From an uncultured Jannaschia sp. (GTDB taxonomy: Bacteria; Pseudomonadota; Alphaproteobacteria; Rhodobacterales; Rhodobacteraceae), in the NCBI RefSeq assembly GCF_947494055.1, contig NZ_CANLTR010000004.1, forward strand, positions 124,001 through 188,000: 64,000 nucleotides of DNA. Reading direction: 5' to 3'. The notes below the pieces were generated by a model. That model saw only the letters and a list, made by a program, of their open reading frames with translations. It was not told the DNA's origin and ran no database searches. Position 1 is the stretch's first letter. Every line of letters starts with the position of its first letter. A program made the position numbers and the translations under genes. Below, one piece after another: positions 1-59,655 of this stretch.

Positions 1-212
1 GCTTGACGACGGCCGGCAGCGTGAGCTCCACCGGTCTGTCCTCGTGGGTCGACGTGGTCCCGAATATCCGCGTCTCGGTCAAAGTGGGACAGGAAGTCCG
101 GATGGTGAACCCGGTCGCCGAGCTGCGCCTCGACCCGGATACGCTCGATCTCGTCGAGAAGGCCCCCGGCGCCTGGTGCGTGGTCTTCTCGGCGACGCAG
201 GTGGTCCGATGA
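1..212 (+). CDS. Phage tail-region protein, C-terminal part (truncated by window edge)
   Basis: An open frame runs from the left edge to a TGA at 210-212, about 70 residues. The frame is open at its first base, so the gene very probably starts upstream. The sequence is beta-rich and polar with no motif I recognise. The next gene starts inside its last codons (ATGA-type overlap at 209), so the two are translationally coupled. Position directly before the tail-tip genes suggests a tail component; no more specific role is supportable. Confidence 0.6.
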   Translation, partial: LTTAGSVSSTGLSSWVDVVPNIRVSVKVGQEVRMVNPVAELRLDPDTLDLVEKAPGAWCVVFSATQVVR

Positions 213-5380: not shown

Positions 5381-5390
5381 CGAGGAAATC

Positions 5391-6682: not shown

Positions 6683-6686
6683 TAGA

Positions 6687-8597: not shown

Positions 8598-8600
8598 CCG

Positions 8601-10616: not shown

Positions 10617-10710
10617 TCCCCCGCCGGGCGCTACGGTGCCCGGCATCCCCCATCACTCGCAAGCGCGACCTCGCCTTCACGGGCGGGGTCATTCCGCATG
10701 GGAGGACGCC

Positions 10711-11289: not shown

Positions 11290-11290
11290 C

Positions 11291-11533
11291 ATGACCAAAG
11301 GACGCAAAGTCCCGCAGCCGACCGCCGCGCCGACGCGCAAGGTCAAATACTTCGCCGGAGTCGGTGGCGCGGTGGCGGTCGCCATGCCGCTGCTCGAGGT
11401 CTTCTGGCCGGGGGCAACTGAGTGCATCGAAGGCGCGCGCGTTGCCGTTCAGCCGCTTATCGCCATCGGCTCGGGCCTCTTCGCCGGCTACATGGTCCGC
11501 GAGCGCGACGATCCGCAAGCGGCAGGCACGTGA
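11291..11533 (+). CDS. Holin-like small membrane protein
   Basis: 80 residues with two hydrophobic segments (YFAGVGGAVAVAMPLLEVF and VAVQPLIAIGSGLFAGYMV), a basic N-terminus (MTKGRKVPQPTAAPTRKVK) and an acidic/charged C-terminus. It lies between the endolysin and the spanin genes, starting one base after the endolysin stop. This fits a holin that permeabilises the inner membrane to release or activate the amidase. No named holin family is recognised, so the call rests on topology and position. Confidence 0.7.
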   Translation: MTKGRKVPQPTAAPTRKVKYFAGVGGAVAVAMPLLEVFWPGATECIEGARVAVQPLIAIGSGLFAGYMVRERDDPQAAGT

Positions 11534-11748
11534 GCGACCTCGCCACGATCCTCGGCGTCGTTGCTGCGATCATCGCTGCCATCGGCGCGGCCTTCTGGGG
11601 CGGCAAGCGATCCGAACGGAAGGCTCACAAGCAACAGGAGAAACAGGACTATGACAACACATTCGACCGCGCGTCGGGGCCTGTCGCTGCTGACAATGGC
11701 AATACTACTGCCGCTCGTGACCGGCTGCTTCGCCGGGGGCAACGGTAG
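11530..11748 (+). CDS. Inner-membrane spanin-like protein (Rz-like)
   Basis: 72 residues from a GTG that overlaps the holin stop (GTGA). One N-terminal transmembrane helix (LATILGVVAAIIAAIGAAFWGG) is followed by a charged, soluble tail (KRSERKAHKQQEKQDYDN...AARDRLLRRGQR), the topology of an i-spanin (N-in, C-out). Its 3' third is overlapped in another frame by a lipoprotein gene, the architecture known from lambda Rz/Rz1. The spanin complex fuses inner and outer membranes in the last step of lysis. Confidence 0.65.
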   Translation: MSDLATILGVVAAIIAAIGAAFWGGKRSERKAHKQQEKQDYDNTFDRASGPVAADNGNTTAARDRLLRRGQR

Positions 11749-11893
11749 CGGCGCCGCACGGGGTCTCTGTGACGGGCTGGAACCCCGCGTCCGCGCCCAT
11801 GCCGTGGCGCTGGCGACCGAAGGGTCAGACGACGTGGTGCTGACCGGCGACGCGCTCATCGAGAGCTTGGATCGGGCGTGCGGGAGGGGATAG
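11651..11893 (+). CDS. Outer-membrane spanin-like lipoprotein (Rz1-like)
   Basis: 80 residues; the start at 11651 lies inside the preceding spanin gene, in a different frame. The signal peptide MTTHSTARRGLSLLTMAILL ends in a lipobox LVTG-C, predicting a lipoprotein with the cysteine at about residue 26. The mature part is short and conserved-looking (LCDGLEPRVRAHAVALATEG ... VVLTGDALIESLDRACG); small lipoproteins with this DGL...H..AL...G...VxxTGxxLI...C pattern are seen in lysis cassettes of Rhodobacterales phages. It stops at 11893, two bases before the next gene. Confidence 0.75.
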   Translation: MTTHSTARRGLSLLTMAILLPLVTGCFAGGNGSGAARGLCDGLEPRVRAHAVALATEGSDDVVLTGDALIESLDRACGRG

Positions 11894-11895
11894 CC

Positions 11896-12633
11896 ATGAC
11901 ACAGATACGGACGGAAGACCTCTTTCGAGAGGGCGTGTCGAAGGGGTTCGTCGGATTCGTTGCCGGATCGGTCATGGCGGTCGCGTCCCTCGGGGGTGCA
12001 GCTGGTGTCTGGTCGTGGAACCGGTGGATCAACGACCAGACCGAAACCCTGATGCAGAAGATCGACGAGCGGATCGACGCGAAGATCCGGGATGCCAACC
12101 GTGAGCTTCGCGACGGCATAGAGGAAGGTCGGGATCGCCTCGAAGGCAAGATCGACCAGATCATTGCCAGCCAGAGCGTCGCGATCGAGCGCATCGACGC
12201 AATCGAGCGGCTGGCACAGCTTCCACGCGAGGTGGCACGACTCCGAGTCCCCGCAAGCGGGCCGCTGACCGATTGCACCGAGCGCGGGACGTGCATCATC
12301 CGGGCAACGATCGAGCGGACAACAGCCGGCGCGAGCTGCAGCGTCATCCCGGGCGAGACGGAGTTCTACTGGCTCGATCCCGAAAGCGGAAACAGGTTCG
12401 CGGCGATCCCGACGAACAAGCGGCCGGCCCGGAATATCGGCGACACCCCTCGTACGTTCGACTGGCAGGTCGAGGTCCCGGACCGGGTCGTTCCGCCAGG
12501 GTTCCTCGATTATTGCCTGGCGCCCGTCTACACGGATTGCCCGGGTCAGATCCCTGGAGCGAAGACGCCATACATGCCGCCGGAACCGATCTGCATCGAG
12601 AACATCCCGATAGGTCAGGCGACACGCCCTTAA
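11896..12633 (+). CDS. Membrane-anchored coiled-coil protein, unknown function
   Basis: 245 residues. One transmembrane helix near the N-terminus (about 16-40, FVGFVAGSVMAVASLGGAAG) is followed by a charged coiled coil (about 45-100, ending near AIERLAQLPREVARLRV). The C-terminal domain has six cysteines (e.g. TDCTERGTCII, YTDCPGQIPG, EPICIENIP), suggesting disulfides and thus a periplasmic location. It is the last gene before the phage late terminator. Possible roles are lysis control or superinfection exclusion; neither can be shown. Confidence 0.6.
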   Translation: MTQIRTEDLFREGVSKGFVGFVAGSVMAVASLGGAAGVWSWNRWINDQTETLMQKIDERIDAKIRDANRELRDGIEEGRDRLEGKIDQIIASQSVAIERIDAIERLAQLPREVARLRVPASGPLTDCTERGTCIIRATIERTTAGASCSVIPGETEFYWLDPESGNRFAAIPTNKRPARNIGDTPRTFDWQVEVPDRVVPPGFLDYCLAPVYTDCPGQIPGAKTPYMPPEPICIENIPIGQATRP

Positions 12634-30330: not shown

Positions 30331-30437
30331 ACGGCAGGCAGCGTAGCCCGTCGTGACACAGCCCCCGAAAGACCGGGCCATCTGAGCAAAGCCGCTCGAC
30401 CCTTCGCGACCTTCGCGAAGCGTGTCAGCGGCTTTTT
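30331..30437 (+). promoter_or_regulatory. ANTAR (NasT) target leader RNA of the nrt-nir-nas operon
   Basis: P1: 30331-30339 pairs with 30346-30354 (one A-C mismatch) around hexaloop AGCGTA. P2: 30364-30367 pairs with 30374-30377 around hexaloop AAAGAC. Both loops have A at position 1 and G at position 4, the known ANTAR recognition pattern, and they are followed by a terminator. NasT, encoded at 48.3-48.9 kb, is the expected binder and would allow read-through when nitrate or nitrite is present. Confidence 0.85.
30388..30437 (+). terminator. Leader terminator controlled by the ANTAR hairpins (nrtA)
   Basis: AAAGCCGCT (30388-30396) pairs with AGCGGCTTT (30427-30435), with a second 7-bp stem (30402-30408 with 30414-30420) inside, and a run of five Ts at 30433-30437. 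It lies 47 bases before nrtA. Confidence 0.9.
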
Positions 30438-30483
30438 GTGTGTTTGGCCGGCCCCGACCCCGGCCTGAAGACAGGGACTGAAC

Positions 30484-44952: not shown

Positions 44953-46680
44953 ATGCCAAGGGACACGACGTCACCGGACGCCCTCCACGTCTCGATCGGT
45001 CAGGCCGCCGCCGCGGGCCGGAAGCCGGTCATGCAGGATTTCCACGGCGCCCTTGTTCCGGAAGGAGAGGTGTTGACGTTGAAGGGCATCACACTCGCCG
45101 TGGCCGATGGCATCAGTTCCAGCGCGGTGAGCGGCGAGGCGGCGGAAACCGCGATCGGCAGCCTGCTCGACGATTACTATGCGACGCCGGACGCCTGGTC
45201 GGTCCGCACCGCCGCGACCCGCGTGATCGCTGCGACGAATGCCTGGCTGCACGGCCGGAACGCCGCGCTGTCCGACATCGACACCGGTCGCGTCACGACG
45301 CTCGCCGCGCTGATCCTGAAGGGCCGGGCCGCGCATGTCCTCCATGTCGGCGACAGCCGCGTGCAGCGGATCGCGGGCGGCGCGCTCGAACGGCTGACCG
45401 CAGATCACCGCGTCACGCTCGCGGGAGGGCGCAGCTATCTCGACCGGGCGCTTGGCGCGGCGGCGGAGGTCGAGGTCGATTACCGGCGGGTGGCGCTGTC
45501 CGAGGGCGACACGTTTCTCCTCACCACCGATGGCGTGCACGATCACATGGACCTGGGCATCGTCCGGGACGCGCTGTCCCGGCCCGATCTCGACGCGGCC
45601 GCCCGCGCGATCCTCGAAGCGGCACTGGCGGCGGGCAGCGACGACAACCTCACGGTCCAGATCGTCCGCGTCGACGCCCTGCCGGACGGGGCGGCGAGCC
45701 TCGCGCCGGAGGCGGCGGATTTGCCGGTGCCGCCCCTGCCGCGGGCGGGCGACGTCGTCGACGGGTTCCGGATCGTCCGGCCCGTCCAGGCCTCCGCCCG
45801 AAGCCACGTGTTCCGCGCGACGGCGGCTGACGGCACGGAGGTCGCGCTGAAGATCCCCGCCTCCGACATCACGCAGGATGCCCGCGCCCTGCGCCGGTTC
45901 CAGCTCGAGGAATGGATCGCCCGGCGGGTCGCGTCGCCCCACGTCGTCGCGGCCGGCCCCGCGCCTGACCGGCGCAGCGTCCTTTACGTCACGACCGCAT
46001 GGGTCGAGGGCACGAACCTGCGACAGTGGATGACCGACCACCCGCGCCCCGCCTTCGAGGAGGTGCGCGGCATCGTCGAACAGGTTGCCGCCGGGCTTCG
46101 CGCGTTGCACCGGCGCGAGATGATCCATCAGGACCTGCGGCCCGAGAACGTCATGCTCGACCGCGACGGCACGGCGAAGATCATCGACCTCGGCTCCGTG
46201 ACCGTGGCGGGGGTGGAGGAGGCCGCCCCGGGATTGCTGGGCGAGATGCCCGGGACGTTCCAGTACACCGCGCCCGAATACCTGTCCGGCGACGCCGTGA
46301 GCTGGCGGTCGGACCAGTACGCGCTGGGGGTGCTGGCCTACGAGATGCTGACCGGGCGGCTGCCCTACGGCGCGCAGGTCGCGCGCATCCGCTCCCGGCG
46401 GGATCAGGGCCGGCTTCGCTACGAGACGGCGCGCGACGACCGGAGCGGGGTGCCGGACTGGATGGACGCGGCGCTGCGCCGGGCGCTCCATCCCGACCCG
46501 CTGCGCCGCTACGACGCGGTGAGCGAGTTCCTCGCCGATCTTCGCCGCCCCGGCCCCGGCTGGAAGGCCGGCCGCCACGTCCCGCTCGCGGAGCGGAACC
46601 CCGTTCGTTTCTGGCAGGGAGTGTCGGCCGCGCTGGCCGTGCTCTGTGTCGTCCTCGCCGCCCAACTCGGCGGCCGATAA
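44953..46680 (+). CDS. Bifunctional protein: PP2C phosphatase fused to Ser/Thr kinase, membrane-anchored
   Basis: 575 residues. Residues 1-245 are a PP2C-type phosphatase: QDFHG near the start, TLAVADGISSS (metal Asp), VLHVGDSRVQRI, LLTTDGVHD and GSDDNLTVQIV. Residues 265-530 are a Hanks-type kinase: DGTEVALKIPAS (VALK Lys), MIHQDLRPENVML (catalytic HQDL), IIDLGS in place of DFG, and GTFQYTAPEYLSG (APE). A C-terminal membrane helix follows (GVSAALAVLCVVLAAQL). It probably regulates nitrite transport or reduction by reversible phosphorylation; the target is unknown. In the DFG position Leu replaces Phe. Confidence 0.9.
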   Translation: MPRDTTSPDALHVSIGQAAAAGRKPVMQDFHGALVPEGEVLTLKGITLAVADGISSSAVSGEAAETAIGSLLDDYYATPDAWSVRTAATRVIAATNAWLHGRNAALSDIDTGRVTTLAALILKGRAAHVLHVGDSRVQRIAGGALERLTADHRVTLAGGRSYLDRALGAAAEVEVDYRRVALSEGDTFLLTTDGVHDHMDLGIVRDALSRPDLDAAARAILEAALAAGSDDNLTVQIVRVDALPDGAASLAPEAADLPVPPLPRAGDVVDGFRIVRPVQASARSHVFRATAADGTEVALKIPASDITQDARALRRFQLEEWIARRVASPHVVAAGPAPDRRSVLYVTTAWVEGTNLRQWMTDHPRPAFEEVRGIVEQVAAGLRALHRREMIHQDLRPENVMLDRDGTAKIIDLGSVTVAGVEEAAPGLLGEMPGTFQYTAPEYLSGDAVSWRSDQYALGVLAYEMLTGRLPYGAQVARIRSRRDQGRLRYETARDDRSGVPDWMDAALRRALHPDPLRRYDAVSEFLADLRRPGPGWKAGRHVPLAERNPVRFWQGVSAALAVLCVVLAAQLGGR

Positions 46681-48352: not shown

Positions 48353-48933
48353 GACAGGAGCCCCGCCGCCGTCACCAGCGATTCCGCGACGTCCGAGACG
48401 CGGCGCCCGGAATCCATCGCCGTCTTGCGCAGGAGCCCGTAGGCCTCCTCCTCCGACAGGCCGCGGGCCTTCATCAGGATGCCCTTCGCCCGGTCGATCA
48501 CCTTGCGCTCCTCCAGCGCGCGCTTCGTCGTCTCGAGCTCGGTGCGCATGCGTTTGAAGACGTTGAACCGGCTTATCGCGGCATCGAGGATCGGACGGAT
48601 GCGGTGCGCCTGCAGCCCGTCGACCACGTAGGCCGACACGCCGGCCTCCACCGCCGACTTGGTCAGCGTGTCGTCCGAGCGGTCGACGAACATCGCCACC
48701 GGCCGGTCGAGCGGCCCCGACGCGATGGCCAAGTCCTCGAGGCTGTCGCGCGACGGGCTCTCGACATCGATCAGCACCACGTCCGGTTGCCGTTCGGCGA
48801 CGTGCCGCGCAAGGCCGGAGGATTCCGAGACGACGGAGATCGCGAAGGCGTCGCCGCCCGACAAGCCGTCGACGATCTGCCGGGCCCGGTCGGGATCGGA
48901 TTCGACGACGAGGATCGAGAGCTTTCCCTGCAT
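48349..48933 (-). CDS. nasT: ANTAR-domain transcription antiterminator NasT
   Basis: 194 residues from ATG 48933. A receiver-like domain (LSILVVESDPDRARQIVDGL ... DVVLIDVESPSRDSLEDL) is followed by a helix (ISRFNVFKRMRTELETTKRAL) and an ANTAR RNA-binding domain. That domain is intact: IDRAKGILMKARGLSEEEAY then LLRKTAMDSGRRVSDVAESL. It should bind the two-hairpin leaders upstream of nrtA and cysG, and probably that of the channel gene, preventing termination. NasT is first and NasS second, as in Paracoccus. Confidence 0.93.
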   Translation of the reverse strand: MQGKLSILVVESDPDRARQIVDGLSGGDAFAISVVSESSGLARHVAERQPDVVLIDVESPSRDSLEDLAIASGPLDRPVAMFVDRSDDTLTKSAVEAGVSAYVVDGLQAHRIRPILDAAISRFNVFKRMRTELETTKRALEERKVIDRAKGILMKARGLSEEEAYGLLRKTAMDSGRRVSDVAESLVTAAGLLS

Positions 48934-49152
48934 CGCTCGATTCTGCGCCGCAGAAAGATGCGATGCAAGGATCGCAGCGGGGATCTGTTCGGGTGCCGAC
49001 GCCGCAGGGGCCCCGCGGGCGTTCGGGCTCGCGGCTTGATGCAGACGCTGCCCATTTCGGACGCAGGACAGGGCCCGGCTGCCCAATTCGGCAGCGCCGC
49101 CTGACCTGTGCCCGGCTCCGGCGCGTGAGGCTGGACACGGGTGCGATGATCG

Positions 49153-49241
49153 GGGCAGGGTGGTCCAAACGGCCGCTGGGGGCGGCCAAGGGCAATCGGG
49201 CCCCGCTACACGCCGGACGACCGGGGTGGCGGGGCTTTTTT
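49153..49241 (+). promoter_or_regulatory. Leader of the amiC-amiR operon (probable AmiR target)
   Basis: GGGC (49153-49156) pairs with GTCC (49163-49166) around hexaloop AGGGTG (A1, G4). A second hairpin GGGC (49190-49193) with GCCC (49200-49203) encloses AATCGG (A1 but C4), and its right arm overlaps the left arm of the terminator. The two structures are mutually exclusive, as expected of an antiterminator. The second loop departs from the ANTAR consensus, so the RNA site is less certain than the terminator. Confidence 0.55.
49200..49241 (+). terminator. Intrinsic terminator in the amiC leader
   Basis: GCCCCGC (49200-49206) pairs with GCGGGGC (49229-49235), CAC with GTG, and CCGG (49213-49216) with CCGG (49221-49224) around ACGA, followed by six Ts (49236-49241). 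It lies 16 bases before the amiC start, so it must be read through for expression. Confidence 0.92.
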
Positions 49242-49257
49242 CGTTTTGCGGGGGGCG

Positions 49258-50367
49258 ATGACGCTCAGGCTCGGATTGATCTTCTCGACGACCGGATCCT
49301 ATGCCGCGCTGGGGCAGAGCGCGCTGGCCGGGGCGCTGGGTGCCATCGCGGCGCTGCGTGCGGAGGGTGTCGCGATCGAGCCGGTGATCCGCGATCCCGG
49401 CGGCGACGTGGCCCGCTACGAGGCGGAGACGACGGCGCTGCTGGAGGACGGGGTGCAGCACATCCTCGGCGCGATCACCTCCTGGAGCCGCAAGGAGATG
49501 ATCCCGGCGCTGGAGCGGGGCGGGGGACTCCTGTGGTATCCGTGCCCCTACGAGGGTTTCGAGAGCAACGACCACGTCGTCTATCTCGGCGCCGCGCCCA
49601 ACCATCACGTCCTGCCGGCGACGGACTGGATCGCGCGGCAGGGGATGCGGCGGGCGTATCTTGTCGGCTCGAACTACGTGTGGGGCTGGGAGACGCTGCG
49701 GCTGGCGCGGGAGCGTCTGGAGGCGCGGGGCGTGGAGATCGTCGGCGAACGGTTCGTGCCGCTAGGCTCCGACCGACACGGGCATGTGGTCGAGGAGATT
49801 TGCGCGCGGGACGCCGATTGCGTGATCGACAGCCTGATCGGGCCGACCAACGCCAGCTTCCTGCGCGACCTCGCCGCCCGCGACCCGGGTCGCGTCGGCC
49901 GGCCGGGCCATGTCGTGAGCTTCAACCAGACCGAGGCCGATCTCGACGCGCTCGGCCCGGCCGCCGAGGGGCTTCTCTCCGCCGGTTGCCTCTTCGAGGA
50001 TGATGCGGACGTGGCGCTGCAGGAAGTAGCGCGGCGCTACGCCCCGAACGGCCGCGTCTCGGCCTTCCTCGCGAGTGCCCATGCGGCGGTCGAGATCCTT
50101 GTCGAAGGCGTTCGTCGGGCCGGGACGGACGCGCCGCGCGCCGTGTTCCGCGCCGTTGCCGAGCGGCCCGTGATCACGGCGATGGGGGAGGTCCGGATCG
50201 ACCCGGTGCTGCGCCACGCCGCGCTCGCCCCTCGGTTGGCATTGGCGACAGGCGGGCGGTTCCGCGTGATCGAGTGGGCCGCGGACCTCGAGTCGGCCGA
50301 TCCTTACCTCACCGCGCAGCGTGCCCATCTCTCCCAGCCGCGACCCGATCTGAGGATCGTCCGATGA
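49258..50367 (+). CDS. amiC: AmiC-like amide sensor / negative regulator
   Basis: 369 residues from ATG 49258. A Leu/Ile/Val-binding-protein fold without a signal peptide, like AmiC: LRLGLIFSTTGSYAALGQSALAGAL, VIRDPGGDVARYEAETTALLED, HILGAITSWSRKEMIPALERGGGLLWYPCPYEGFESND, VYLGAAPNHHVLPATDWIA, YLVGSNYVWGWETLRLARE. In Pseudomonas AmiC sequesters AmiR until an amide binds. It overlaps the AmiR gene (ATGA). The ligand here is inferred to be an amide or small peptide. Confidence 0.88.
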   Translation: MTLRLGLIFSTTGSYAALGQSALAGALGAIAALRAEGVAIEPVIRDPGGDVARYEAETTALLEDGVQHILGAITSWSRKEMIPALERGGGLLWYPCPYEGFESNDHVVYLGAAPNHHVLPATDWIARQGMRRAYLVGSNYVWGWETLRLARERLEARGVEIVGERFVPLGSDRHGHVVEEICARDADCVIDSLIGPTNASFLRDLAARDPGRVGRPGHVVSFNQTEADLDALGPAAEGLLSAGCLFEDDADVALQEVARRYAPNGRVSAFLASAHAAVEILVEGVRRAGTDAPRAVFRAVAERPVITAMGEVRIDPVLRHAALAPRLALATGGRFRVIEWAADLESADPYLTAQRAHLSQPRPDLRIVR

Positions 50368-50954
50368 GCCGCGCGCCGCTCCACAACTTCGCAGGCCGTT
50401 CGGCGCTCGTCCTGCATCGCTCCGAGGGGCCGGGCCGGGAGATCGCTTCTCGCTGCGACCGGCTCGGCATCCGGGCGCCGATGCTGCGGGGCGACGTGAC
50501 CGCCGAAGACATGGCGAAGATCGACATGGTGATCCTCGACATCGACACGGGCGACGACGGTCAGCTGCCCTGGGCGCCGGGGCAGGCGCCGGTGCCGGTG
50601 ATCGGGCTCGTCGGTTCGGAGAGCCCCGGTCGGCTGGCCTGGGCTCTGGCGCAGGAGGTGGACGCCTACCTGCCGCTCTCGGCGCTGGGCAACCTGTTCT
50701 CGGCCCTGGTGATCGCGCACGAGACCTTCGCGCAGAAGGCCGAACGTCGCCGGCGCGAGGCACGGGTGGCGGAGCGCAATGCCGGGCGGCTCGACGTGAT
50801 CCGTGCCGTGCTGGCACTCCGGGAGGCGAACGGCGACGAGGCGGTCGCGCTGAAGCAGCTTCGCGCGATGGCGATGGTCGAGCGGATCAGCCTGGAGGAG
50901 GCCGCGCGACGGATCCTGTCCGAGGGGCATGCCGCGCGGACGGCGCGCCGATGA
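50364..50954 (+). CDS. amiR: AmiR-like ANTAR antiterminator
   Basis: 196 residues. An atypical receiver-like domain (RSALVLHRSEGPGREIASRC ... MAKIDMVILDIDTG) and a coiled coil (FAQKAERRRREARVAERNA) precede a divergent ANTAR domain (LDVIRAVLALREANGDEAVALKQLRAMAMVERISLEEAARRIL). The coupling to an AmiC gene identifies it as AmiR. It is expected to bind the leader upstream of amiC and allow read-through into the transporter genes. The stop overlaps the next gene (ATGA). Confidence 0.85.
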   Translation: MSRAPLHNFAGRSALVLHRSEGPGREIASRCDRLGIRAPMLRGDVTAEDMAKIDMVILDIDTGDDGQLPWAPGQAPVPVIGLVGSESPGRLAWALAQEVDAYLPLSALGNLFSALVIAHETFAQKAERRRREARVAERNAGRLDVIRAVLALREANGDEAVALKQLRAMAMVERISLEEAARRILSEGHAARTARR

Positions 50955-51835
50955 GCGCCACTGCCGAGGCCCCCGTGCGGCGTCCGCAGGGCGTGCTGCG
51001 CCAGCTTCTGGGTCGACCGCGCGCCGCGTTCGGCCTTGTCGTCATTGCGGTCATGGTCACGGCCGCGCTCTTCGCCCCGTGGCTCATGCCGCACGATCCC
51101 TTCGCGCAGAGCTTCGACGGGCTCGACCTGATGGGTGCGCCGCTGCCGCCCGGGGGCGCCTATCCGCTGGGCACCGACCTGCTTGGACGCGACCTCGCCT
51201 CGCGGCTGATCCTCGGCACGCGCACGTCGCTCATCATCGGCGTGGTGGCGAACGGGATCGCCGTGGTGCTCGGCGCGGGCGTGGGCATCACCGCCGGCTA
51301 TTTCTGCGGCTGGACGGCAGCGATCCTGATGCGGTTCACCGACCTGATGATGGCGTTCCCCGCGCTCCTCCTCGCCATCGTGCTGGCCGCGATCTTCCAG
51401 CCGTCGCTGATGATCGTGGCGCTGGTGATCGCGATGGTGAACTGGGTGCAGATGAGCCGGGTAATCTATACCGAGACGCGCAGTCTCGCGGAGCGGGAAT
51501 TCATCCAGGTCCAGCGCGCGATCGGCTCGGGTCCCCTGCGCATCCTCGGGCGCCATCTGCTGCCGCATCTGCTGTCGTCGATCATCGTGTTCGGGACGCT
51601 CGGCATCTCCACCACCGTGCTGCTGGAGGCGACGCTCAGCTATCTCGGCGTGGGCGTGCAGCCGCCGATGCCGTCCTGGGGCAACATCATCTTCGAGAAC
51701 CAGACCTACTTCTCGACCGCGCCCTGGCTCGTCTTCATTCCCGGGCTGCTGATCGTGCTTCTGGCGCTGGCCTTCAACCTCGTGGGCGACGCGCTGCGCG
51801 ACGTGCTCGACCCGACGCTGAAGGGGCGGCACTGA
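50951..51835 (+). CDS. Peptide/amide ABC transporter permease (DppC type)
   Basis: 294 residues. N-terminal cytoplasmic segment, first helix FGLVVIAVMVTAALFAPWL, then LGTDLLGRDLASRLILGTRTSLIIGVV (the OppC/DppC opening). The core carries FTDLMMAFPALLLAIVLAAIF and the EAA-type loop REFIQVQRAIGSGPLRILGRHLLPHLLSSIIV. It is partner to the following DppB-type permease. C-before-B order is the reverse of usual dpp operons. Confidence 0.93.
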   Translation: MSATAEAPVRRPQGVLRQLLGRPRAAFGLVVIAVMVTAALFAPWLMPHDPFAQSFDGLDLMGAPLPPGGAYPLGTDLLGRDLASRLILGTRTSLIIGVVANGIAVVLGAGVGITAGYFCGWTAAILMRFTDLMMAFPALLLAIVLAAIFQPSLMIVALVIAMVNWVQMSRVIYTETRSLAEREFIQVQRAIGSGPLRILGRHLLPHLLSSIIVFGTLGISTTVLLEATLSYLGVGVQPPMPSWGNIIFENQTYFSTAPWLVFIPGLLIVLLALAFNLVGDALRDVLDPTLKGRH

Positions 51836-52755
51836 TGGGCGCCTACATTCTCCGCCGCCTGCTGGAGAGCGCGCTGATCCTGCTCGGGATCACCCTCGTG
51901 ACCTTCGTGCTCCTCTACCTCGTGCCCGCCGATCCGGCGCGGCAGATCGCCGGCCGGTCGGCCACGGCGGAGACGGTGGCGAACATCCGCGATCAGCTTG
52001 GGCTGAACGACCCGCTCTTCGTGCAATACGGCCGCTACCTCTGGAACCTCGCGCAGGGCGACATGGGCCGCTCCTACCTTCAGCGGGCGGAAGTGGCGGA
52101 CCTGATCGCCGCGCGGCTGCCGGCGAGCCTGCTGCTGATGCTGTCGGCCATCGTCACGGAACTGATCATCGGGCTCACCATCGGCGTCGTCGCCGCGCTG
52201 CGCCGCAACCGGCCAATGGATCATTCGCTGATGATCTTCTCCTTCGTGTCGATTTCCGCCCCGCAATTCGTGATCGGCATTCTGCTTCTCTACGTTTTCG
52301 CGGTGAAGCTCGCCTGGTTCCCGATCGGCGGCTACGGCACGGCGGCACATTTCGTGCTGCCGTCGCTGACGCTCGGCCTGCTTGGTGCTGGCTGGTATTC
52401 CCGGATGATGCGATCCTCGATGATCGACGTGCTGAGCCAGGACTTCGTCCGCACGGCGCGTGCCAAGGGGCTGGCGAAGGTCCGCATCGTCACGCGCCAC
52501 GTCATCCCGAACGCGATCCTGCCCATCATCGCAATGATCGGGATCGATATCGGCCTGTTCATGTCCGGCATCGTCGTCGTCGAGAGCGTGTTCGGATGGC
52601 CGGGGATCGGCCAGCTCGCCTGGCAGGCCATCCAGCGCATCGACATCCCCGTCATCATGGGCGTGACGATGGTGTCGGCGGCGGCGATCGTGATCGGCAA
52701 CCTGCTGGCCGACCTCGCGGCGCCGCTCATCGACCCCCGCATCAAGACCAAGTGA
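51835..52755 (+). CDS. Peptide/amide ABC transporter permease (DppB type)
   Basis: 306 residues; the ATG at 51835 shares a base with the previous TGA. Typical DppB/OppB: MGAYILRRLLESALILLGITLVTFVLLYLVPADPA, LNDPLFVQYGRYLWNLAQGDMGRSY, FSFVSISAPQFVIGILLLYVFAV and the EAA loop DFVRTARAKGLAKVRIVTRHVIPNAILPII. It forms the membrane channel with the DppC-type subunit. Confidence 0.94.
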   Translation: MGAYILRRLLESALILLGITLVTFVLLYLVPADPARQIAGRSATAETVANIRDQLGLNDPLFVQYGRYLWNLAQGDMGRSYLQRAEVADLIAARLPASLLLMLSAIVTELIIGLTIGVVAALRRNRPMDHSLMIFSFVSISAPQFVIGILLLYVFAVKLAWFPIGGYGTAAHFVLPSLTLGLLGAGWYSRMMRSSMIDVLSQDFVRTARAKGLAKVRIVTRHVIPNAILPIIAMIGIDIGLFMSGIVVVESVFGWPGIGQLAWQAIQRIDIPVIMGVTMVSAAAIVIGNLLADLAAPLIDPRIKTK

Positions 52756-52774
52756 CCAATAGAGGAGAGACAAC

Positions 52775-54400
52775 ATGACACGCACCCTACTGACCGGCAT
52801 CGCGACGCTCGCGCTCACCGCCACCGGGGCGCTGGCCCAAGTGGACGAGAACGCGCCGCAGGGCGGCGAGATGGTCGTCACCTACCAGGACGACGTCGCC
52901 ACGCTGGACCCGGCCATCGGCTACGACTGGCAGAACTGGTCGATGATCAAGTCGCTCTTCGACGGGCTGATGGGCTACGAGCCGGGCACGACGACGCTGC
53001 GCAACGAACTGGCGGAGAGCCACGAGATCTCCGGGGACGGCCTGACCCATACCTTCGCGCTGAAGGACGGGATCACCTTCCACAACGGTCGCGAGATCAC
53101 CGCCGAGGACGTGAAATATTCGCTCGAGCGGGTGACGAACCCCGAGACGCGCAGCCCCGGCGCGGGCTTCTTCTCGATGATCGAGGGCTTCGACAGCTGG
53201 AACGCGGGCGAGGGCGAAGGCCTGTCGGGCGTCACCGTGATCGACGACAAGACGGTCGAGATCACGCTCTCTCGCCCCGACGCCACGTTCGGACACGTCA
53301 TGGCGCTGAACTTCGCCTCCGTCGTGCCGCAGGAGGCCGTCGAGGCGTCGGGCGAGGATTTCGGTCGTGAGCCCGTCGGCTCGGGCGCCTTCCGTCTCGC
53401 CGAATGGACGCCCGGCCAGCAGCTCGTCTTCGAGCGGTTCGAGGACTACCACCGCGAAGGCGTGCCGAAGCTCGATCAGGTCACGTTCAGCATCGGGCTG
53501 GAACCCACCGTCGCGCTCCTGCGGCTGCAGAGCGGGGAGGCCGACGTCCCGGGCGACGGTATCCCGCCGGCGCAGTTCCTTCAGGTGATGAACGACCCGG
53601 CGCAGGCCGAGCGCGTGGTCGAGGGCGGACAGCTCCAGACCGGTTACATCACGCTGAACACGCAGATGGCGCCGTTCGACAACGTGGATGTCCGCAAGGC
53701 CGTCAACATGGCGATCAACAAGGATCGCATCACCCAGATGATCAACAACCGCGCGGTCCCGGCCAACCAGCCGCTGCCGCCGACGATGCCGGGCTACGCC
53801 GAGGATTACGAGGGCTACGCCTACGACCCCGAGGCCGCGATACAGATGCTGGCCGATGCCGGCTTTCCCGACGGCTTCACGACCGAGCTCTACGTGATGA
53901 ACGTCGATCCCAATCCGCGCATCGCGCAGGCCATCCAACAGGACCTAGCCGAGATCGGCGTGACCGCCGAGATCCGCTCGCTCGCGCAGGCCAACGTGAT
54001 CGCGGCCGGCGGCGAGGCGGACCAGGCGCCGATGATCTGGTCGGGCGGCATGGCCTGGATCGCGGATTTCCCGGACCCGTCGAACTTCTACGGCCCGATC
54101 CTCGGCTGCGCCGGCGCGGTGCCGGGCGGCTGGAACTGGGCGTGGTACTGCAACGAGGAGATCGACGCGCGCGCCGCCGAGGCCGACGCGATGACCGGCG
54201 AGGGGCAGCAGGGGGGCCGCGAGGACGCCTGGCGGCAGATCTACCTCGACATCATGGAGGACGCGCCCTGGGTGCCCGTCTTCAACGAGCAGCGCTTCAC
54301 GCTCCATTCCGAGGGCGTGGCCGGCGACGACACCCTGTTCGTCGATCCGGTCCACATTCCGGTGAACTACGACTACATCTACGCGACCGAGGCCGAGTGA
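52775..54400 (+). CDS. ABC transporter substrate-binding protein, family 5 (DppA/OppA type)
   Basis: 541 residues, with an AGAGGAGA ribosome-binding site. Signal peptide MTRTLLTGIATLALTATGALA. Family-5 features: VTYQDDVATLDPAIGYDWQNWSMIKSLFDGLMGYEPG, FALKDGITFHNGREITAEDVKYSLERV, PVGSGAFRLAEWTPGQQLVFERFEDY and DVRKAVNMAINKDRI. It captures a peptide or amide in the periplasm. The substrate cannot be read from sequence; the downstream formamidase suggests short amides or peptides. Confidence 0.93.
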   Translation: MTRTLLTGIATLALTATGALAQVDENAPQGGEMVVTYQDDVATLDPAIGYDWQNWSMIKSLFDGLMGYEPGTTTLRNELAESHEISGDGLTHTFALKDGITFHNGREITAEDVKYSLERVTNPETRSPGAGFFSMIEGFDSWNAGEGEGLSGVTVIDDKTVEITLSRPDATFGHVMALNFASVVPQEAVEASGEDFGREPVGSGAFRLAEWTPGQQLVFERFEDYHREGVPKLDQVTFSIGLEPTVALLRLQSGEADVPGDGIPPAQFLQVMNDPAQAERVVEGGQLQTGYITLNTQMAPFDNVDVRKAVNMAINKDRITQMINNRAVPANQPLPPTMPGYAEDYEGYAYDPEAAIQMLADAGFPDGFTTELYVMNVDPNPRIAQAIQQDLAEIGVTAEIRSLAQANVIAAGGEADQAPMIWSGGMAWIADFPDPSNFYGPILGCAGAVPGGWNWAWYCNEEIDARAAEADAMTGEGQQGGREDAWRQIYLDIMEDAPWVPVFNEQRFTLHSEGVAGDDTLFVDPVHIPVNYDYIYATEAE

Positions 54401-54404
54401 TCCC

Positions 54405-55346
54405 ATGTGCAAGCATTGCGACTACACGATCCACGGGCGCCATCACCACGGCTGGGACAATGCCATCCCGCCCGCCGAGACGGTGGCTCCGGGAAGCCGC
54501 ATCCATTTCCGCTGCCTCGACAGCTCCGGCGGTCAGTTCACGCGGGAGAGCACCACGGCGGACGTGCCGAAGCTCGATTTCGACCTCATCAACCCCGTCA
54601 CCGGTCCCGTCTATGTCGACGGGGCCGAGCCGGGGGACGTGCTCAAGGTCACGCTCGAGGCGTTCCACCCGTCGGGCTTCGGCTGGACGGCGAACATCCC
54701 GGGCTTCGGGCTTCTGGCCGACCAGTTCCCCGACCCGCATCTGAAGGTCTGGGACTACGACGCGGGCAGCCTCGCCCCCGCGCTGTTCTCCGACACGGCG
54801 CGGGTGCCGCTCAAGCCCTTCGCGGGCACGATCGGGCTCGCGCCAGCGGAGGCGGGGCACCATTCGGTCGTCCCGCCGCGGCGGATGGGCGGCAATCTCG
54901 ACATCCGCGACCTTGCCGCGGGCACGACGCTCTACCTGCCAGTCGAGGTGGCGGGCGCGCTCTTCTCCATCGGCGACACCCACGCCGCGCAGGGTGACGG
55001 CGAGGTCTGCGGCACCGCCATCGAGAGCCCGATGGACGTGGAGGTGACGCTCGACCTCGTGAAGCAGACGCATCTCGCGAACCCGCGCTTCACCACGCCC
55101 GGACCGGTCACGCGGCATCTCGACGCGAAGGGCTACGAGGCGACGACGGGCGTGGGGCCGGACCTGATGGCGGGGGCGCGGGACGCGGTCTCCGCGATGA
55201 TCGACCTGCTGTCTAGGGAGCACGGCTTCTCGGCGGAGGACGCCTACCTGCTCTGCTCGGTGGCGGGCGACCTGCGCATCTCGGAGATCGTCGACATGCC
55301 GAACTGGGTCGTGTCCTTCTACTTCCCCCGCATCGTCCTCGAATGA
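54405..55346 (+). CDS. Acetamidase/formamidase family hydrolase
   Basis: 313 residues, four bases after the binding protein. FmdA/AmdA family: opening HGRHHHGWDNAIPPAETVAPG, PVTGPVYVDGAEPGDVLKVTLEAF, HHSVVPPRRMGGNLDIRDLAAGTTLYLPVEVAGALFSIGD and THAAQGDGEVCGTAIESPMDV. It hydrolyses short amides to ammonia and the acid. Together with the AmiCR pair it points to amide nitrogen use. ATGA overlap with the next gene. Confidence 0.93.
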   Translation: MCKHCDYTIHGRHHHGWDNAIPPAETVAPGSRIHFRCLDSSGGQFTRESTTADVPKLDFDLINPVTGPVYVDGAEPGDVLKVTLEAFHPSGFGWTANIPGFGLLADQFPDPHLKVWDYDAGSLAPALFSDTARVPLKPFAGTIGLAPAEAGHHSVVPPRRMGGNLDIRDLAAGTTLYLPVEVAGALFSIGDTHAAQGDGEVCGTAIESPMDVEVTLDLVKQTHLANPRFTTPGPVTRHLDAKGYEATTGVGPDLMAGARDAVSAMIDLLSREHGFSAEDAYLLCSVAGDLRISEIVDMPNWVVSFYFPRIVLE

Positions 55347-57115
55347 GCGCGAAGGACGATACCGGACGGGGCGGCCGCCGCCCCGTCCTCTCGGTCCGTG
55401 ACCTCACCGTGCAGGTCGCGACCGAGGCGGGCGCGAAGACCGTGCTCGATGGCCTGTCCTTCGACCTCGTGGCGGGCGAGACGCTTGCGCTCGCCGGCGA
55501 GAGCGGGTCGGGCAAGTCGATGACGGCGCTAGCGATCATGGGCCTTCTGCCGAAGCCCATGGCCCGGATCACGAGCGGCGCCATCCGGCTGGGCGAGACG
55601 GAACTGACCACGCTCGACGAGGCCAATTATCGCCGCATCCGCTCGGCGCGGATCGCGATGATCTTCCAGGAACCGATGACGTCGCTGAACCCGCTGATGC
55701 GCGTCGAGACGCAGCTTTGCGAAGTTCTGCTCGAGCACGGTATCTGTGCCCGCGGGGAGGCGCCCGCCCGCGCCCTGCGCCTCCTGCAGGACGTCCGCCT
55801 GACCGAGCCGGAACGGCGGCTGAAGCAATATCCGCACGAGCTTTCGGGCGGGATGCGCCAGCGGGTGATGATCGCGATGGCGCTGGCCTGCGAGCCGGAG
55901 GTCCTGATCGCCGACGAACCGACCACCGCGCTCGACGTGACGGTGCAGGCGGAAATCCTCGATCTCGTCCGGACGTTGCAGCGCGAGCACGGGACGGCCG
56001 TCCTGATGATCACCCACGACATGGGCGTGGTGGCCGAGATGGCCGACCGTGTCGTCGTCCTGCGCGCCGGACGCGAGGAGGAGCAGGCCCCGGTCCGCGA
56101 CCTCTTTGCCGCGCCGCGCACCGACTATGCGCGCGCGCTTCTCGCCGCCGTGCCGCGCCTCGGCACCGCGTCCGCGCGCCCCGAGCGGGCGGAGGCTCGC
56201 AAGGTCGTCGAGGTGGACGACCTCTCAGTCCGCTTCGACCTCGCCGGCGGACTGCTCAACCGGACCGTCGCACGGGTCCATGCGGTCGAGAACGTGTCGT
56301 TCCACATCCACGCGGGCGAGACGCTGGCGCTGGTGGGCGAGTCGGGCTGCGGCAAGTCCACCATCGGCAAGGCGCTCATGGGCCTCGTCCCGTGGCAGGG
56401 CTCGATCCGCGTCGACGGAGTGCAGACAGGCGGCCGGTCGCGCGCCGCCATGCGGCCGGTGCTGCGCGATATCCAGATGGTGTTCCAAGACCCCGGCGCC
56501 TCGCTCGACGCGCGGATGCCGGTCGGCGCGCAGGTGACGGAGCCGATGCGGGTCCACGGCCTCGTCGCCGGTTCGGAGTTGGGCGACCGGGCCGAATGGC
56601 TGTTCCGGCGGGTCGGTCTCTCGCCCGACATGCTGCGGCGCTACCCGCACGAATTCTCCGGTGGCCAGCGGCAGCGGATCTGCATCGCCCGCGCGCTCAG
56701 CCTCGGGCCCAAGGTCATCGTCGCCGACGAGAGCGTCTCCGCCCTCGACGTGAGCGTGCAGGCGCAGGTGCTCGACCTCTTGCGCGAACTTCAGGAGGCG
56801 GACGGGCTGGCCTATCTCTTCATCAGTCACGACATGGCGGTGGTCGAGGGGGTCGCGGACCGGGTCATGGTCATGCGTCTGGGCCAGGTGATGGAGGAGG
56901 GGCCGCGCGACGCCGTGCTCCGCGATCCCCGCCATCCTTATACGCGACGCCTGCTCGCCGCCGTGCCGGTGCCCGACCCGACCCGCGCCCGCCCGCCGAT
57001 ACCCGACACGGCCGGGATCGAGGCGGCAAGCCCGATCTTCCCCGTCGGCCGCGGCCCGGCCCGGGTCGCCCTCGAGGAGGCGCGACCCGGCCACCGCGTT
57101 GCCCGCGCGACGTGA
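55343..57115 (+). CDS. Fused oligopeptide-type ABC ATPase (DppD-DppF tandem)
   Basis: 590 residues with two ATPase domains. Domain 1: Walker A GESGSGKSM, FQEPMTSLNPLMRV, signature LSGGMRQRVMIAMAL, Walker B VLIADEPTTALD. Domain 2: Walker A GESGCGKST, FQDPGASLDARMPV, signature FSGGQRQRICIARAL, Walker B VIVADESVSALD (Ser for Pro after Glu), H-loop ISHDMAVVE. It powers the adjacent permeases. The usual OppD/F C-terminal Fe-S/cysteine motif is reduced. GTGA overlap with the next gene. Confidence 0.94.
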   Translation: MSAKDDTGRGGRRPVLSVRDLTVQVATEAGAKTVLDGLSFDLVAGETLALAGESGSGKSMTALAIMGLLPKPMARITSGAIRLGETELTTLDEANYRRIRSARIAMIFQEPMTSLNPLMRVETQLCEVLLEHGICARGEAPARALRLLQDVRLTEPERRLKQYPHELSGGMRQRVMIAMALACEPEVLIADEPTTALDVTVQAEILDLVRTLQREHGTAVLMITHDMGVVAEMADRVVVLRAGREEEQAPVRDLFAAPRTDYARALLAAVPRLGTASARPERAEARKVVEVDDLSVRFDLAGGLLNRTVARVHAVENVSFHIHAGETLALVGESGCGKSTIGKALMGLVPWQGSIRVDGVQTGGRSRAAMRPVLRDIQMVFQDPGASLDARMPVGAQVTEPMRVHGLVAGSELGDRAEWLFRRVGLSPDMLRRYPHEFSGGQRQRICIARALSLGPKVIVADESVSALDVSVQAQVLDLLRELQEADGLAYLFISHDMAVVEGVADRVMVMRLGQVMEEGPRDAVLRDPRHPYTRRLLAAVPVPDPTRARPPIPDTAGIEAASPIFPVGRGPARVALEEARPGHRVARAT

Positions 57116-58863
57116 TCCCCCTTGACGAGACCTTCCCCCGGACACTGGACGACCTGCCACCCGAGGCGACGACGGTGTGGTTGTTCGAGGATCGGGCCGC
57201 CCGCGCGGCGGCGGAGCGGAACGCGGCGGAGGGAGGGCGCACGATCCGCATCCGCTCGGCCTACAAGACGCTGCTCCACCACGTCCTGGAGGACGGTCTG
57301 CTCGACGACGCGCGGCGGGCGGTGATCCGTTATCCCGTCGTGCCGAACGTGGCGGCCGACCGGTTCCGGCTGGAATGCTACCCGCTGCATGCGCTCGTGC
57401 CCGATTGCGAGATCGCCTTCGTGCCCGACCTGCAGGACGGCCCCGACCTGCCCGTCTACACGGTGGAGACCGAGCGGGGTCGCCACCGCGTCCCGGTCCC
57501 GGTGCGCTGGCGTGCGGGCGCGGACGGGCGGCCCGTGCTCGGCGCTTGCGGTTGGCTGGCCCGGGGGGACGCGGGCGAGCCGCTCGAAACGGAGTACGAG
57601 GCCATCTTCGCGCGGGCTTGCGCGGCGCTTCATGCGCTGCCGCTCGACCCTCTCGACCCTCTCGACCCTCTCGACCCTGCCGAGCCCGACGGCCCGTTCT
57701 TCGCGCGCCTGTCGGTCGAGGTCACGCTGCCGGCGGCGGACATGCCCCTTCCGGTCGGGCACGAGCGTGTCTCGCTCGCGGAGGCGATGCACGAGGAGAT
57801 CTACTTCGCCGGGCTCGAGATCTTTCGTCGCCGGTTGAGCCTCTCGCCCGGCGCGCGGAACGTGCGTTGCGGGCAGATCGTCCCGCGCGTCCTCGCCGGC
57901 GGCGTGCCGGGCCTGCGGATGCAGGTCGCGACGCCGGAGGTCGAGACGGCTGACCTCGATGATCCGGACCTGCCCGATCTCGACACCGTGGCGCACTGGC
58001 TGACCCCGGCGCAGATCGCCGGCCATCTCGACCGGATCGGCGGCGTGCCCTTCGCCGGACGGTCGCGACAGGGCCGGACGATCCCGGGCCGGTTCGTTGC
58101 GGGGACGGGCCGGGCCACGCTGGCGATCTCGGGCGGGCAGCACGCCAACGAGAGCACGGGCATCGTCGGTGCGCTCCGCGCCGCGCGCGACCTTGCCGCC
58201 GAGGGCCGCGCGAGCTTCACCGTGACGCCGCTGGAGAACCCCGACGGCTATGCCGTCTTTCGCGACCTCTGCCGCGCCCGGCCGCACGACATGCACCACG
58301 CCGCCCGCTACACGGCGAGCGGCGCGGATCTGGGCCACGCGCCGGACTGCCCGGAACGTGACGTCCGGAACCGGGCGCGGGCGCATCTGCCGGCGGAGGT
58401 CCATCTCAACCTGCACGGCTACCCAAGCCACGAATGGACGCGCCCGCTCTCGGGCTACATCCCGGACGGCTTCGCGGGCTGGACGATCCCCAAGGGTTTC
58501 TTCCTGATCCTGCGCCATGCACAGGACGCGGCGGCGTTGGGGCGGGTCGTCCTCGACGCGGCACTGGGCGCGCTCGCGGCCTGTCCCGAGATCGGGGCGC
58601 AGAACCGACGGATGCTGACGCTCTACGATCGATACGTCTCCGAACGCGCCTTCGCCGTCCATGCGGGCTGCATCCCCTACGTGACCGGCATCGAGGCGGA
58701 AGCGGACTACCCGGTGACGCTCATCACCGAAGCGCCGGACGAAACCATCCGTGGTGAGGCGTTCCGCATCGCGCAGGCCGCCCATGCCCGCGTCGTCCGC
58801 GCGGTGGCCGCGGCGCTCGGCTCCGATCGGGACGACGAGCCGAGCCTCGACGATAGTCGTTGA
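57112..58863 (+). CDS. M14-like zinc metallopeptidase / deacylase of the amide-peptide operon
   Basis: 583 residues from a GTG overlapping the ATPase stop. The last ~260 residues carry the M14-like zinc site: ISGGQHANESTG (His344, Glu347) and HLNLHGYPSHEW (His435), with LITEAPDE near the end as a candidate for the catalytic Glu. The first ~300 residues are a separate uncharacterised region (YPLHALVPDCEIAFVPDLQDG) with an LDP microrepeat. No signal peptide, so cytoplasmic. It probably processes the imported peptide or acyl-amide. Carboxypeptidase and succinylglutamate-desuccinylase-like activities are alternatives. Confidence 0.8.
   Translation: MIPLDETFPRTLDDLPPEATTVWLFEDRAARAAAERNAAEGGRTIRIRSAYKTLLHHVLEDGLLDDARRAVIRYPVVPNVAADRFRLECYPLHALVPDCEIAFVPDLQDGPDLPVYTVETERGRHRVPVPVRWRAGADGRPVLGACGWLARGDAGEPLETEYEAIFARACAALHALPLDPLDPLDPLDPAEPDGPFFARLSVEVTLPAADMPLPVGHERVSLAEAMHEEIYFAGLEIFRRRLSLSPGARNVRCGQIVPRVLAGGVPGLRMQVATPEVETADLDDPDLPDLDTVAHWLTPAQIAGHLDRIGGVPFAGRSRQGRTIPGRFVAGTGRATLAISGGQHANESTGIVGALRAARDLAAEGRASFTVTPLENPDGYAVFRDLCRARPHDMHHAARYTASGADLGHAPDCPERDVRNRARAHLPAEVHLNLHGYPSHEWTRPLSGYIPDGFAGWTIPKGFFLILRHAQDAAALGRVVLDAALGALAACPEIGAQNRRMLTLYDRYVSERAFAVHAGCIPYVTGIEAEADYPVTLITEAPDETIRGEAFRIAQAAHARVVRAVAAALGSDRDDEPSLDDSR
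57643..57678 (+). repeat. Four perfect 9-bp tandem repeats inside the M14-like gene
   Basis: CTCGACCCT is repeated four times in frame, giving LDP repeats in a linker. Copy-number change would alter linker length without breaking the frame. Confidence 0.9.
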
Positions 58864-58914
58864 CTGCCGCGTCGGGGGGCGTTCGATCGGCGCCTCGATT
58901 GCGTGGCGCGAATG

Positions 58915-59655
58915 TCAGGCCGCCTTGGTGCTGGCCGTCACGTAGTTCACCGACAGGTCCCGCTCCGAAAGCCGCCATGACCAGGTGAGCGGGTTGAAGA
59001 CGAAGCCCATCCGGTCCACCGGCGCGAGGCCCGCCCGGCGGATCAGGTCGTAGAGCTCGTCCGGCGTGATGAACTTCGACCAGTCATGCGTGCCCTTCGG
59101 CAGCCAGCGCATCACCTGCTCGGCCCCGAAGATCGCCATCACCCAGGATTTCGGGTTCCGGTTGAGCGTCGAGCAGACCATGAGCCCGCCGGGCCGCAGG
59201 AGCCGCTGGCAGGCGGTCAGATAGGCGAGCGGGTCGGCGACATGCTCGACCACCTCCATGTTGAGGACGACGTCGAAGGACGCCTCGCCGGTCTCGACCA
59301 GCGCCTCGGCGGTGGCGTGGCGGTAATCGATGTCGAGGCCGGACTGCGCCGCATGGGCCTGCGCCACGGGAATGTTGCGCTCGGCCGCGTCCACGCCCAC
59401 CACCTTCGCTCCGAGCCGCGCCATCGGCTCCGCCAGCAGGCCGCCGCCGCAGCCGATATCGAGGATGCGCAGGCCGTCGAAGGGTCGCTCGGCGCGAAGG
59501 TTGCGATCGAACTCACCGGCGATCTGCGTCGTGATGTAATCCAGCCGGCAGGGGTTCAGCATGTGCAGCGGTTTGAACTTGCCCTCCGGATCCCACCATT
59601 CGGCGGCTATCGCCTGGAACTTCTCGATTTCGCCCGGATCGATCGTGGTGGTCAT
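58915..59655 (-). CDS. ubiG: Ubiquinone biosynthesis O-methyltransferase UbiG
   Basis: 246 residues, ATG at 59655. SAM-dependent class I methyltransferase: [62 protein letters not shown] (SAM-binding), [16 protein letters not shown] and [12 protein letters not shown] are the UbiG signature. It catalyses both O-methylations of ubiquinone synthesis. Divergent from the aminopeptidase gene, 60 bases apart. Confidence 0.96.

Follow-up and report, generated by a model that had tools for sequence, protein, structure and literature searches.

A probable amide-scavenging operon in an uncultured Jannaschia and the single, variant hexaloop of its leader RNA

What does an ANTAR protein read in a leader RNA? 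The accessible portion of Ramesh et al. (PMC3369931) reports A at loop position 1 and G at position 4 (A1 and G4) in both loops of the eut, nasF and amiE leaders, and an actinobacterial survey applies the same dual A1/G4 rule in its accessible part (PMC8164766). Walshe et al. (PMC8934654, accessible in part) argue on structural grounds that the minimal ANTAR target is a single hexaloop and that G4, which stacks on EutV Tyr164 and is held by Arg142, Lys149 and Glu160, makes the sole base-specific contact. For the genes behind such leaders, the accessible part of PMC13209695 reports that Klebsiella sp. KOS9 carries, in one plasmid operon, an amidase, amiC, amiR and four cluster-5 ATP-binding cassette (ABC) genes. 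Here we analyze a 64,000-nucleotide stretch (the window; NZ_CANLTR010000004.1, positions 124,001 to 188,000, forward strand) of contig 4 in the 4.7-Mb genome of an uncultured Jannaschia sp. (GCF_947494055.1), where eight open reading frames (ORFs), at 49258-58863 on the plus strand, lie tightly packed behind a leader terminator. We put at roughly 70% the probability that they form an inducible operon that scavenges nitrogen from amides (most likely those of L-amino acids) under leader control by the AmiC-AmiR pair (AmiCR). The kit is ordinary, widespread and already described; what is new is the leader RNA, and an M14-like addition is unusual.

Scans of the operon proteins against Pfam and NCBIfam bear out the content given by the first-pass annotation, a leader terminator followed by AmiC, AmiR, transporter genes C, B, A and fused D-F, an amidase-family gene and an M14-like gene: all eight ORFs are present. 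The near-continuous stop-start overlaps also hold, with 4-bp overlaps at the amiC/amiR, amiR/C, FmdA/D-F and D-F/M14 junctions, and a 1-bp overlap at C/B; 19 bp separate B from A, and 4 bp separate A from FmdA. An AmiC-like sensor followed immediately by AmiR with such an overlap is the arrangement expected of an AmiC-AmiR system. A promoter behind amiR would have isolated the transporter; over 48700-59200, a promoter scan listed no site where chance alone would give 0.5, a weak result that says little on inner promoters. None of the NCBIfam cut-offs for Dpp, Opp, Nik or Gsi permeases and binding proteins is reached by the operon proteins, and the amidase scores 138.3 bits against the cut-off of 500 for the NCBIfam FmdA equivalog, so that "Dpp" and "formamidase" name a class here and not a substrate. 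The earlier call of a formamidase was too precise, therefore, while membership in the wider FmdA_AmdA family of Pfam is sound (206 bits, cut-off 27).

A pointer to the cargo is the binding protein, which aligns with PDB 8upi over 517 residues without a gap (E 4e-253); the next-best structure is heme-binding protein A (E 2e-59), and DppA (1dpp) follows at E 2e-56. We take 8upi to be a Mesorhizobium protein that binds L-amino acid amides, and an SBP_bac_5 protein close to it beside FmdA_AmdA to be what defines the corresponding transporter family; both stand in this one operon. The 8upi work, reportedly by Smith et al. in Biochemistry in 2024, is said to count about 610 such binding proteins beside FmdA_AmdA amidases, and is not said to treat AmiCR or leaders. 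Because the binding protein is so close to 8upi, amino-acid amides appear the likelier cargo, and the peptide-type cargo proposed in the first-pass annotation gives way to them.

Gene content and order, the relation to 8upi, AmiR family membership and a conserved hairpin overlapping a conserved terminator can be read from the sequence; for the ligand, AmiR-hairpin binding, induction and the substrates of both enzymes, we infer the following course. Without inducer, AmiR would be held by AmiC and transcription would halt at the leader terminator. An amide binding AmiC would release AmiR, which could then bind the hexaloop of a leader hairpin (P2) and prevent the terminator's 5' arm from pairing, allowing RNA polymerase to read through into amiC-amiR and on into the transporter and enzyme genes. 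The amide would enter via the family-5 binding protein and the C-B-DF transporter, the FmdA_AmdA enzyme would release ammonia, and the M14-like enzyme, added at the 3' end in this lineage, would perhaps cut a related imported compound, such as a peptide amide or an N-acyl amino acid.

How widespread is this kit? The first-pass annotation singled out AmiCR beside a Dpp-type transporter; the pairing is real here but is not special to this genome. A tblastn search with the binding protein (E 1e-60) returned 870 plasmid records, 731 of them from Klebsiella, with 66-73% identity among the best 40 of the 870. By tblastn and annotation, nine of 11 plasmid loci fetched (L058, L059, L061 and L063-L068; amiR of L058 by annotation only), one of them from Klebsiella, carry amiC-amiR-C-B-A-FmdA-DF, that is, the first seven genes in the same order. 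L062 is without amiCR. L060 (S. meliloti pSymB, CP090106.1) has an amiR match in two frames at 5498-6045, where no gene is annotated; this may be a sequencing error or a broken gene. AmiR matches of at least 240 bits number at least 42 in 390 genomes of the order and at least 12 in a 398-genome sample of the phylum that partly holds the same genomes; after one of the latter (L105), permease C does not follow. Altogether, amiC-amiR followed by permease C occurs in 54 fetched loci, window included, most of which end inside permease B, with the remaining operon outside their range. Given these many loci and the Klebsiella version in print, the combination of AmiCR and a peptide-type transporter is already known and common.

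It is unlikely, in our estimate, that the operon instead scavenges peptides, importing short peptides for trimming by the M14-like enzyme while the amidase-family enzyme handles the released amide. The transporter is of the Dpp/Opp class, and the eighth protein does resemble a carboxypeptidase: it scores 20.7 bits with Pfam Peptidase_M14, slightly below the cut-off of 21.6, and its predicted structure (predicted local distance difference test, pLDDT, 84.6; predicted template modeling score, pTM, 0.87) has M14 enzymes and carboxypeptidases as best Foldseek matches (E 1.5e-8; template modeling score about 0.3 by query, 0.4-0.6 by target). H344, E347, H435 and E540 are invariant in 17 of 17 aligned M14-like proteins (from 44 at hand, one further row being left out for a stop codon); the first three presumably form an HxxE...H zinc site, with E540 as the catalytic Glu. 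The N-terminal 300 residues match no Pfam or NCBIfam family at 1e-3. Relatives of this gene, moreover, stand mostly behind another peptide-type transporter, with the order DF-A-B-C, in 38 of 43 loci (L003, L005-L008, L010-L039 and L041-L043). Against peptide import, the binding protein lies far nearer to 8upi than to DppA, and the M14 gene has no match in the 11 plasmid loci and occurs in two of 20 genomes of the window's genus, another of which (G534) has AmiR (254 bits) and an FmdA_AmdA gene (76%) and no M14 match.

Because its relatives mostly follow a different transporter, gene eight appears to be a lineage-specific addition to a seven-gene operon. The self-contained eight-gene operon of the first-pass annotation thus stands as a tightly packed unit, with its last gene an apparent addition, and the full order of eight was found elsewhere in a single one of the 43 loci with M14 relatives, L002, from an uncultured Jannaschia. 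Among the other exceptions to the DF-A-B-C order, L004 has the C permease only, L009 begins at the gene, and L040 and L044 are arranged otherwise. G1113, of the window's genus and possibly the same genome as L002, has D-F and then M14, the match holding one TGA. In Palleronia (L003), the two units are consecutive: B-A-FmdA-DF stands at the edge of the locus, DF-A-B-C-M14 comes next, and nasT-nasS follows after about 4 kb. This arrangement suggests that the M14 gene came into the amide operon from a neighbor such as Palleronia's DF-A-B-C unit. A search of the window's genome for Palleronia's second permease, run without a positive control, found nothing.

Two further observations concern this gene. 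At 57643-57678 it holds four tandem 9-base units, CTCGACCCT, encoding Leu-Asp-Pro repeats, of which the protein alignment shows two in L003 and none in L002. LamB/YcsF and biotin-carboxylase genes precede M14's other transporter operon in five of the 43 loci (L015, L016, L017, L023 and L024), hinting at a lactam or oxoproline substrate, and a carboxyltransferase gene lies upstream in three further loci; a link between the M14 gene and 5-oxoproline genes was set aside because the loci were too few.

We consider it quite improbable that this is an acetamide or formamide operon of the classical amiE kind in which a Dpp-type transporter has replaced the AmiS channel. Very small amides are unusual cargo for family-5 binding proteins, and the enzyme lies far below the FmdA formamidase cut-off, whereas its FmdA_AmdA membership would suit such a role, as would the acetamidase activity reported, in the accessible part of PMC13209695, for KOS9, the Klebsiella strain with the AmiCR-amidase-ABC plasmid operon, said there to hold a single acetamidase gene. 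That activity also counts in favor of our main reading of an amide operon. The Jannaschia genome has a second FmdA_AmdA-family gene (G000 contig 15, 17918-18592), 42% identical to the operon copy.

The leader is where the amide operon offers something new. In the window, it holds two hairpins, P1 and P2, and the terminator stem begins with the 3' arm of P2, so that a leader terminator is overlapped by a hexaloop hairpin, as expected of AmiC-AmiR systems. P2 has A at loop position 1, as in the canonical ANTAR target, and P1 does not. A U-G pair reduces the P1 loop to three bases in the computed fold; P1 is present in L002 too, with the loop TGCGG. The computed folding energy of the leader is -48.4 kcal/mol (z -3.3), and the minimum-energy fold contains P1 and the terminator while P2 is absent, as expected of the unbound state. 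A simple terminator scan, which found two sites against 2.7 expected by chance, missed the leader terminator; we accept it as real because related operons have terminators at the same place. P2 and the terminator are kept in the window and L002 at equal spacing. No good -10 box was seen by eye behind the -35-like box, and a strict promoter scan listed none. GGGC[AGGGTG]GTCC at 49153-49166 was considered as P1 and dropped, being too far from P2 and overlapping the expected -10 region. A pattern search for further AmiR sites in the genome gave nine matches against ten in a reversed control, no better than chance, and by eye only the match at the amiC leader has a convincing terminator.

The same element recurs across amide operons. 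We searched 53 leaders (the 54 loci minus L074, whose position coincides with that of L048; some near-duplicates are still included) for 3-bp hairpins whose 3' arm opens the terminator, with loops of 3-10 bases. For a six-base loop, 49 of the 53 leaders have such a P2-type hairpin overlapping the terminator, compared with 9, 5, 4, 5, 9, 16 and 5 leaders for loops of 3, 4, 5, 7, 8, 9 and 10 bases. When the 20 bases ahead of the 3' arm were shuffled, on average 1.2 of the 49 remained (maximum 5). Looser scans reveal the hairpin in the four leaders with no hit (L048, L066, L084 and L085) as well. Stems read GGC/GCC in 47 leaders, and that of L049 is GCC/GGC, changed on both sides. The loop starts with A in 48 of 49, the sole other (L072) being a mispick with an A1 hairpin beside it. 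At base 4, by contrast with the canon, C is found in 32, T in 8, A in 6 and G in only 3, including the L072 mispick; at base 5, 33 leaders have G and 14 have A.

Is the second hairpin needed? Upstream of the hairpin, a box with five or six of six matches to TTGACA is found in 40 of the 53 leaders (shuffled mean 8.3, maximum 17, from a stretch of only roughly the same region). We looked for a P1 stem in 48 leaders (the 54 without the near-duplicates L074, L085, L086, L098 and L104, and with L077 skipped). It is present in 19 of 22 leaders with boxes at -54 to -63 (shuffled 4.2, maximum 10), in one of 14 with boxes at -43 to -46 (shuffled 1.5, maximum 7), and in eight of 12 without a clear box (shuffled 1.1, maximum 4). 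Thirteen of the 14 short leaders, with their close promoter-like box, thus have no second hairpin and do not show two hexaloops. Where P1 exists, its loop has 4-8 bases and no common A1/G4 pattern, L070 (AACGAC) alone being noted with both bases. The window leader, with its distant box and P1, falls in the long class.

The proteins that would read these leaders are unusual as well. AmiC matches PDB 8tg1 best (E 3e-38) and AmiC (1pea) at E 8e-36, and its residue 5 aligns with residue 10 onward of 1pea, so that it begins directly with the mature-protein fold and leaves no room for a signal peptide. AmiR of the window on its own gives no Pfam match at 1e-3 and no believable PDB match. A family profile built from 15 relatives matches Pseudomonas aeruginosa AmiR (1qo0 chain D, E 1e-25, residues 9-192), and all 15 family members scanned show ANTAR and 14 of them AmiR_N (E up to 0.1); the window protein thus looks like a genuine, yet divergent, AmiR-family member. 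Of 52 amide-operon AmiRs, none has Lys at the Lys149 place by our own reading, and the Tyr164 place is occupied by Tyr in 44, Phe in four and Leu in four. A coupling of Tyr164/Lys149 loss to G4 loss was tried and set aside as not clean; among the 40 Tyr-keeping AmiRs whose leader loop was read, position 4 is C, T or A in 39. Protein and leader RNA both appear, from these comparisons, to depart from the ANTAR canon, and residue and base do not covary. Among AmiCR loci outside amide operons, most have no terminator or no such hairpin; G4 occurs in L054-L056 (GAGC[AGGGCA]GCTC) and L111 (AACGAC), and is absent from L107 (AAATGG) and L105 (AAGTGC).

The genome offers its own point of comparison in NasT-NasS. 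Before the nitrate transporter genes, at 30364-30440 and about 17 kb from nasT-nasS, a pair of A1/G4 hexaloops and a terminator make up a textbook NasT target. NasT carries a full ANTAR domain (82.7 bits), is the sole match in a PF03861 search of the 4.7-Mb genome, and keeps Tyr and Lys at the EutV Tyr164/Lys149 places by our own mapping to EutV numbers. BLASTP of the window's AmiR against it found no similarity (E 1.3). Rfam at gathering level finds only two tRNAs in the window and, at loose E-values, nothing credible at either leader.

We tentatively propose, at somewhat less than even odds, that amide-operon AmiRs are an ANTAR subclass that reads a single terminator-overlapping hexaloop, mostly A-N-N-Y-R-N, in which A1 is kept, G4 is lost and position 5 is a purine, while P1 would be merely accessory and is absent from one class of leaders. 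Several results weigh against our account of the operon and its control. The ANTAR score of the window's AmiR is 15.7 bits against a cut-off of 27.3, and Leu stands at the place of the EutV stacking aromatic (again by our own mapping). The window leader is no textbook ANTAR target, P2 having C for G4 and P1 not being a hexaloop, and an earlier scan found no terminator in four of the 54 leaders (L064, L082, L085 and L091). On the side of the cargo, the fused ATPase exceeds the NikD, NikE, CntD and CntF cut-offs, the scores of its two domains summing, and our literature searches did not confirm the ligand of 8upi. That AmiR is decaying, the terminator no longer controlled and the operon at low basal expression is again quite improbable: the low ANTAR score, the Leu and the P1 loop would fit, but P2 and terminator persist at the same spacing in the window and L002, and amiR is intact in both, at 85% identity.

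What would follow if amide-operon AmiRs do read a single variant hexaloop? ANTAR antitermination would then not depend in general on the dual A1/G4 hexaloop, and this genome would use two codes side by side, that of NasT and that of AmiR. We did not find the variant loop described in the open-access literature searched. Dozens of natural leaders keep one hexaloop without G4, some without a second hairpin, and would make the minimal-target argument in the accessible part of Walshe et al. (PMC8934654) testable in living systems. Such leaders would also broaden searches for ANTAR targets.

The features discussed are collected in Table 1. The nasT-nasS pair diverges from the operon, with nasT and amiC back to back, two ANTAR systems within one nitrogen island; beyond it lie a cyanase gene and then ORFs of a nitrate cluster, the latter judged by eye. 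An ORF at 44953-46680, resembling by eye from its translation a fused protein phosphatase and Ser/Thr kinase, sits within the nitrate cluster, between a formate/nitrite-type transporter ORF and the cyanase gene. At the other end of the window, 1-12600 holds long ORFs reminiscent, by eye, of phage tail or gene-transfer-agent genes.

Table 1. Positions in the window of the amide operon, its leader and the adjoining ANTAR system
Feature	Start	End	Strand	Remarks
Dual hexaloop CCCG[AAAGAC]CGGG + GAGC[AAAGCC]GCTC	30364	30397	+	before nitrate transporter genes; second hexaloop overlaps terminator
nasT-nasS pair	47189	48933	-	divergent from operon; second ANTAR sensor pair, adjoining
-35-like box TGGACA	49132	49137	+	putative operon promoter; 5/6 to TTGACA
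Leader hairpin P1	49171	49187	+	6-bp stem, 5-base loop TGGGG; not a hexaloop
Leader hairpin P2	49190	49203	+	GGGC[AATCGG]GCCC; hexaloop with A1 and C4
Intrinsic leader terminator	49200	49241	+	stem-loop and T run; ends 16 bases before amiC
amiC	49258	50367	+	amide-sensor-like protein, Peripla_BP_5; apparently without signal peptide
amiR	50364	50954	+	divergent AmiR-type antiterminator; pseudo-receiver part and weak ANTAR
ABC permease, Opp/Dpp/Nik C type	50951	51835	+	Pfam BPD_transp_1
ABC permease, Opp/Dpp/Nik B type	51835	52755	+	Pfam BPD_transp_1
Family-5 solute-binding protein A	52775	54400	+	SBP_bac_5; start resembles signal peptide; close to PDB 8upi
FmdA_AmdA-family amidase (acetamidase/formamidase family)	54405	55346	+	Pfam FmdA_AmdA
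Fused ABC ATPase, D and F halves	55343	57115	+	two ABC_tran stretches
M14-like metallo-enzyme	57112	58863	+	GTG start; N-terminal domain of about 300 residues; HxxE, H and catalytic E kept

Set beside known systems, the operon combines familiar parts. Operons of the 8upi type, as we take them to be, likewise join SBP_bac_5, Dpp-type permeases and an FmdA_AmdA amidase in a single operon, to which the window adds an M14-like gene at the 3' end. The amiEBCRS operon of P. aeruginosa shares with our model the AmiC/AmiR pair and antitermination at a leader terminator, but its amidase belongs to another family and a channel takes the place of the ABC transporter. The amiE leader, according to the accessible part of PMC3369931, has A1/G4 loops, whereas the window leader is without G4. 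The Klebsiella plasmid operon, as the accessible part of PMC13209695 describes it, shares AmiCR, an amidase and a cluster-5 ABC transporter with ours, and the Klebsiella locus among our plasmid loci (L058, not necessarily the same operon) has the window's order amiC-amiR-C-B-A-FmdA-DF with no adjoining M14-like gene. Closest at hand is NasT-NasS in the same window, likewise a sensor and an ANTAR protein that presumably act on a leader terminator; unlike AmiCR here, the NasT side pairs a full ANTAR domain with the canonical dual A1/G4 hexaloop.

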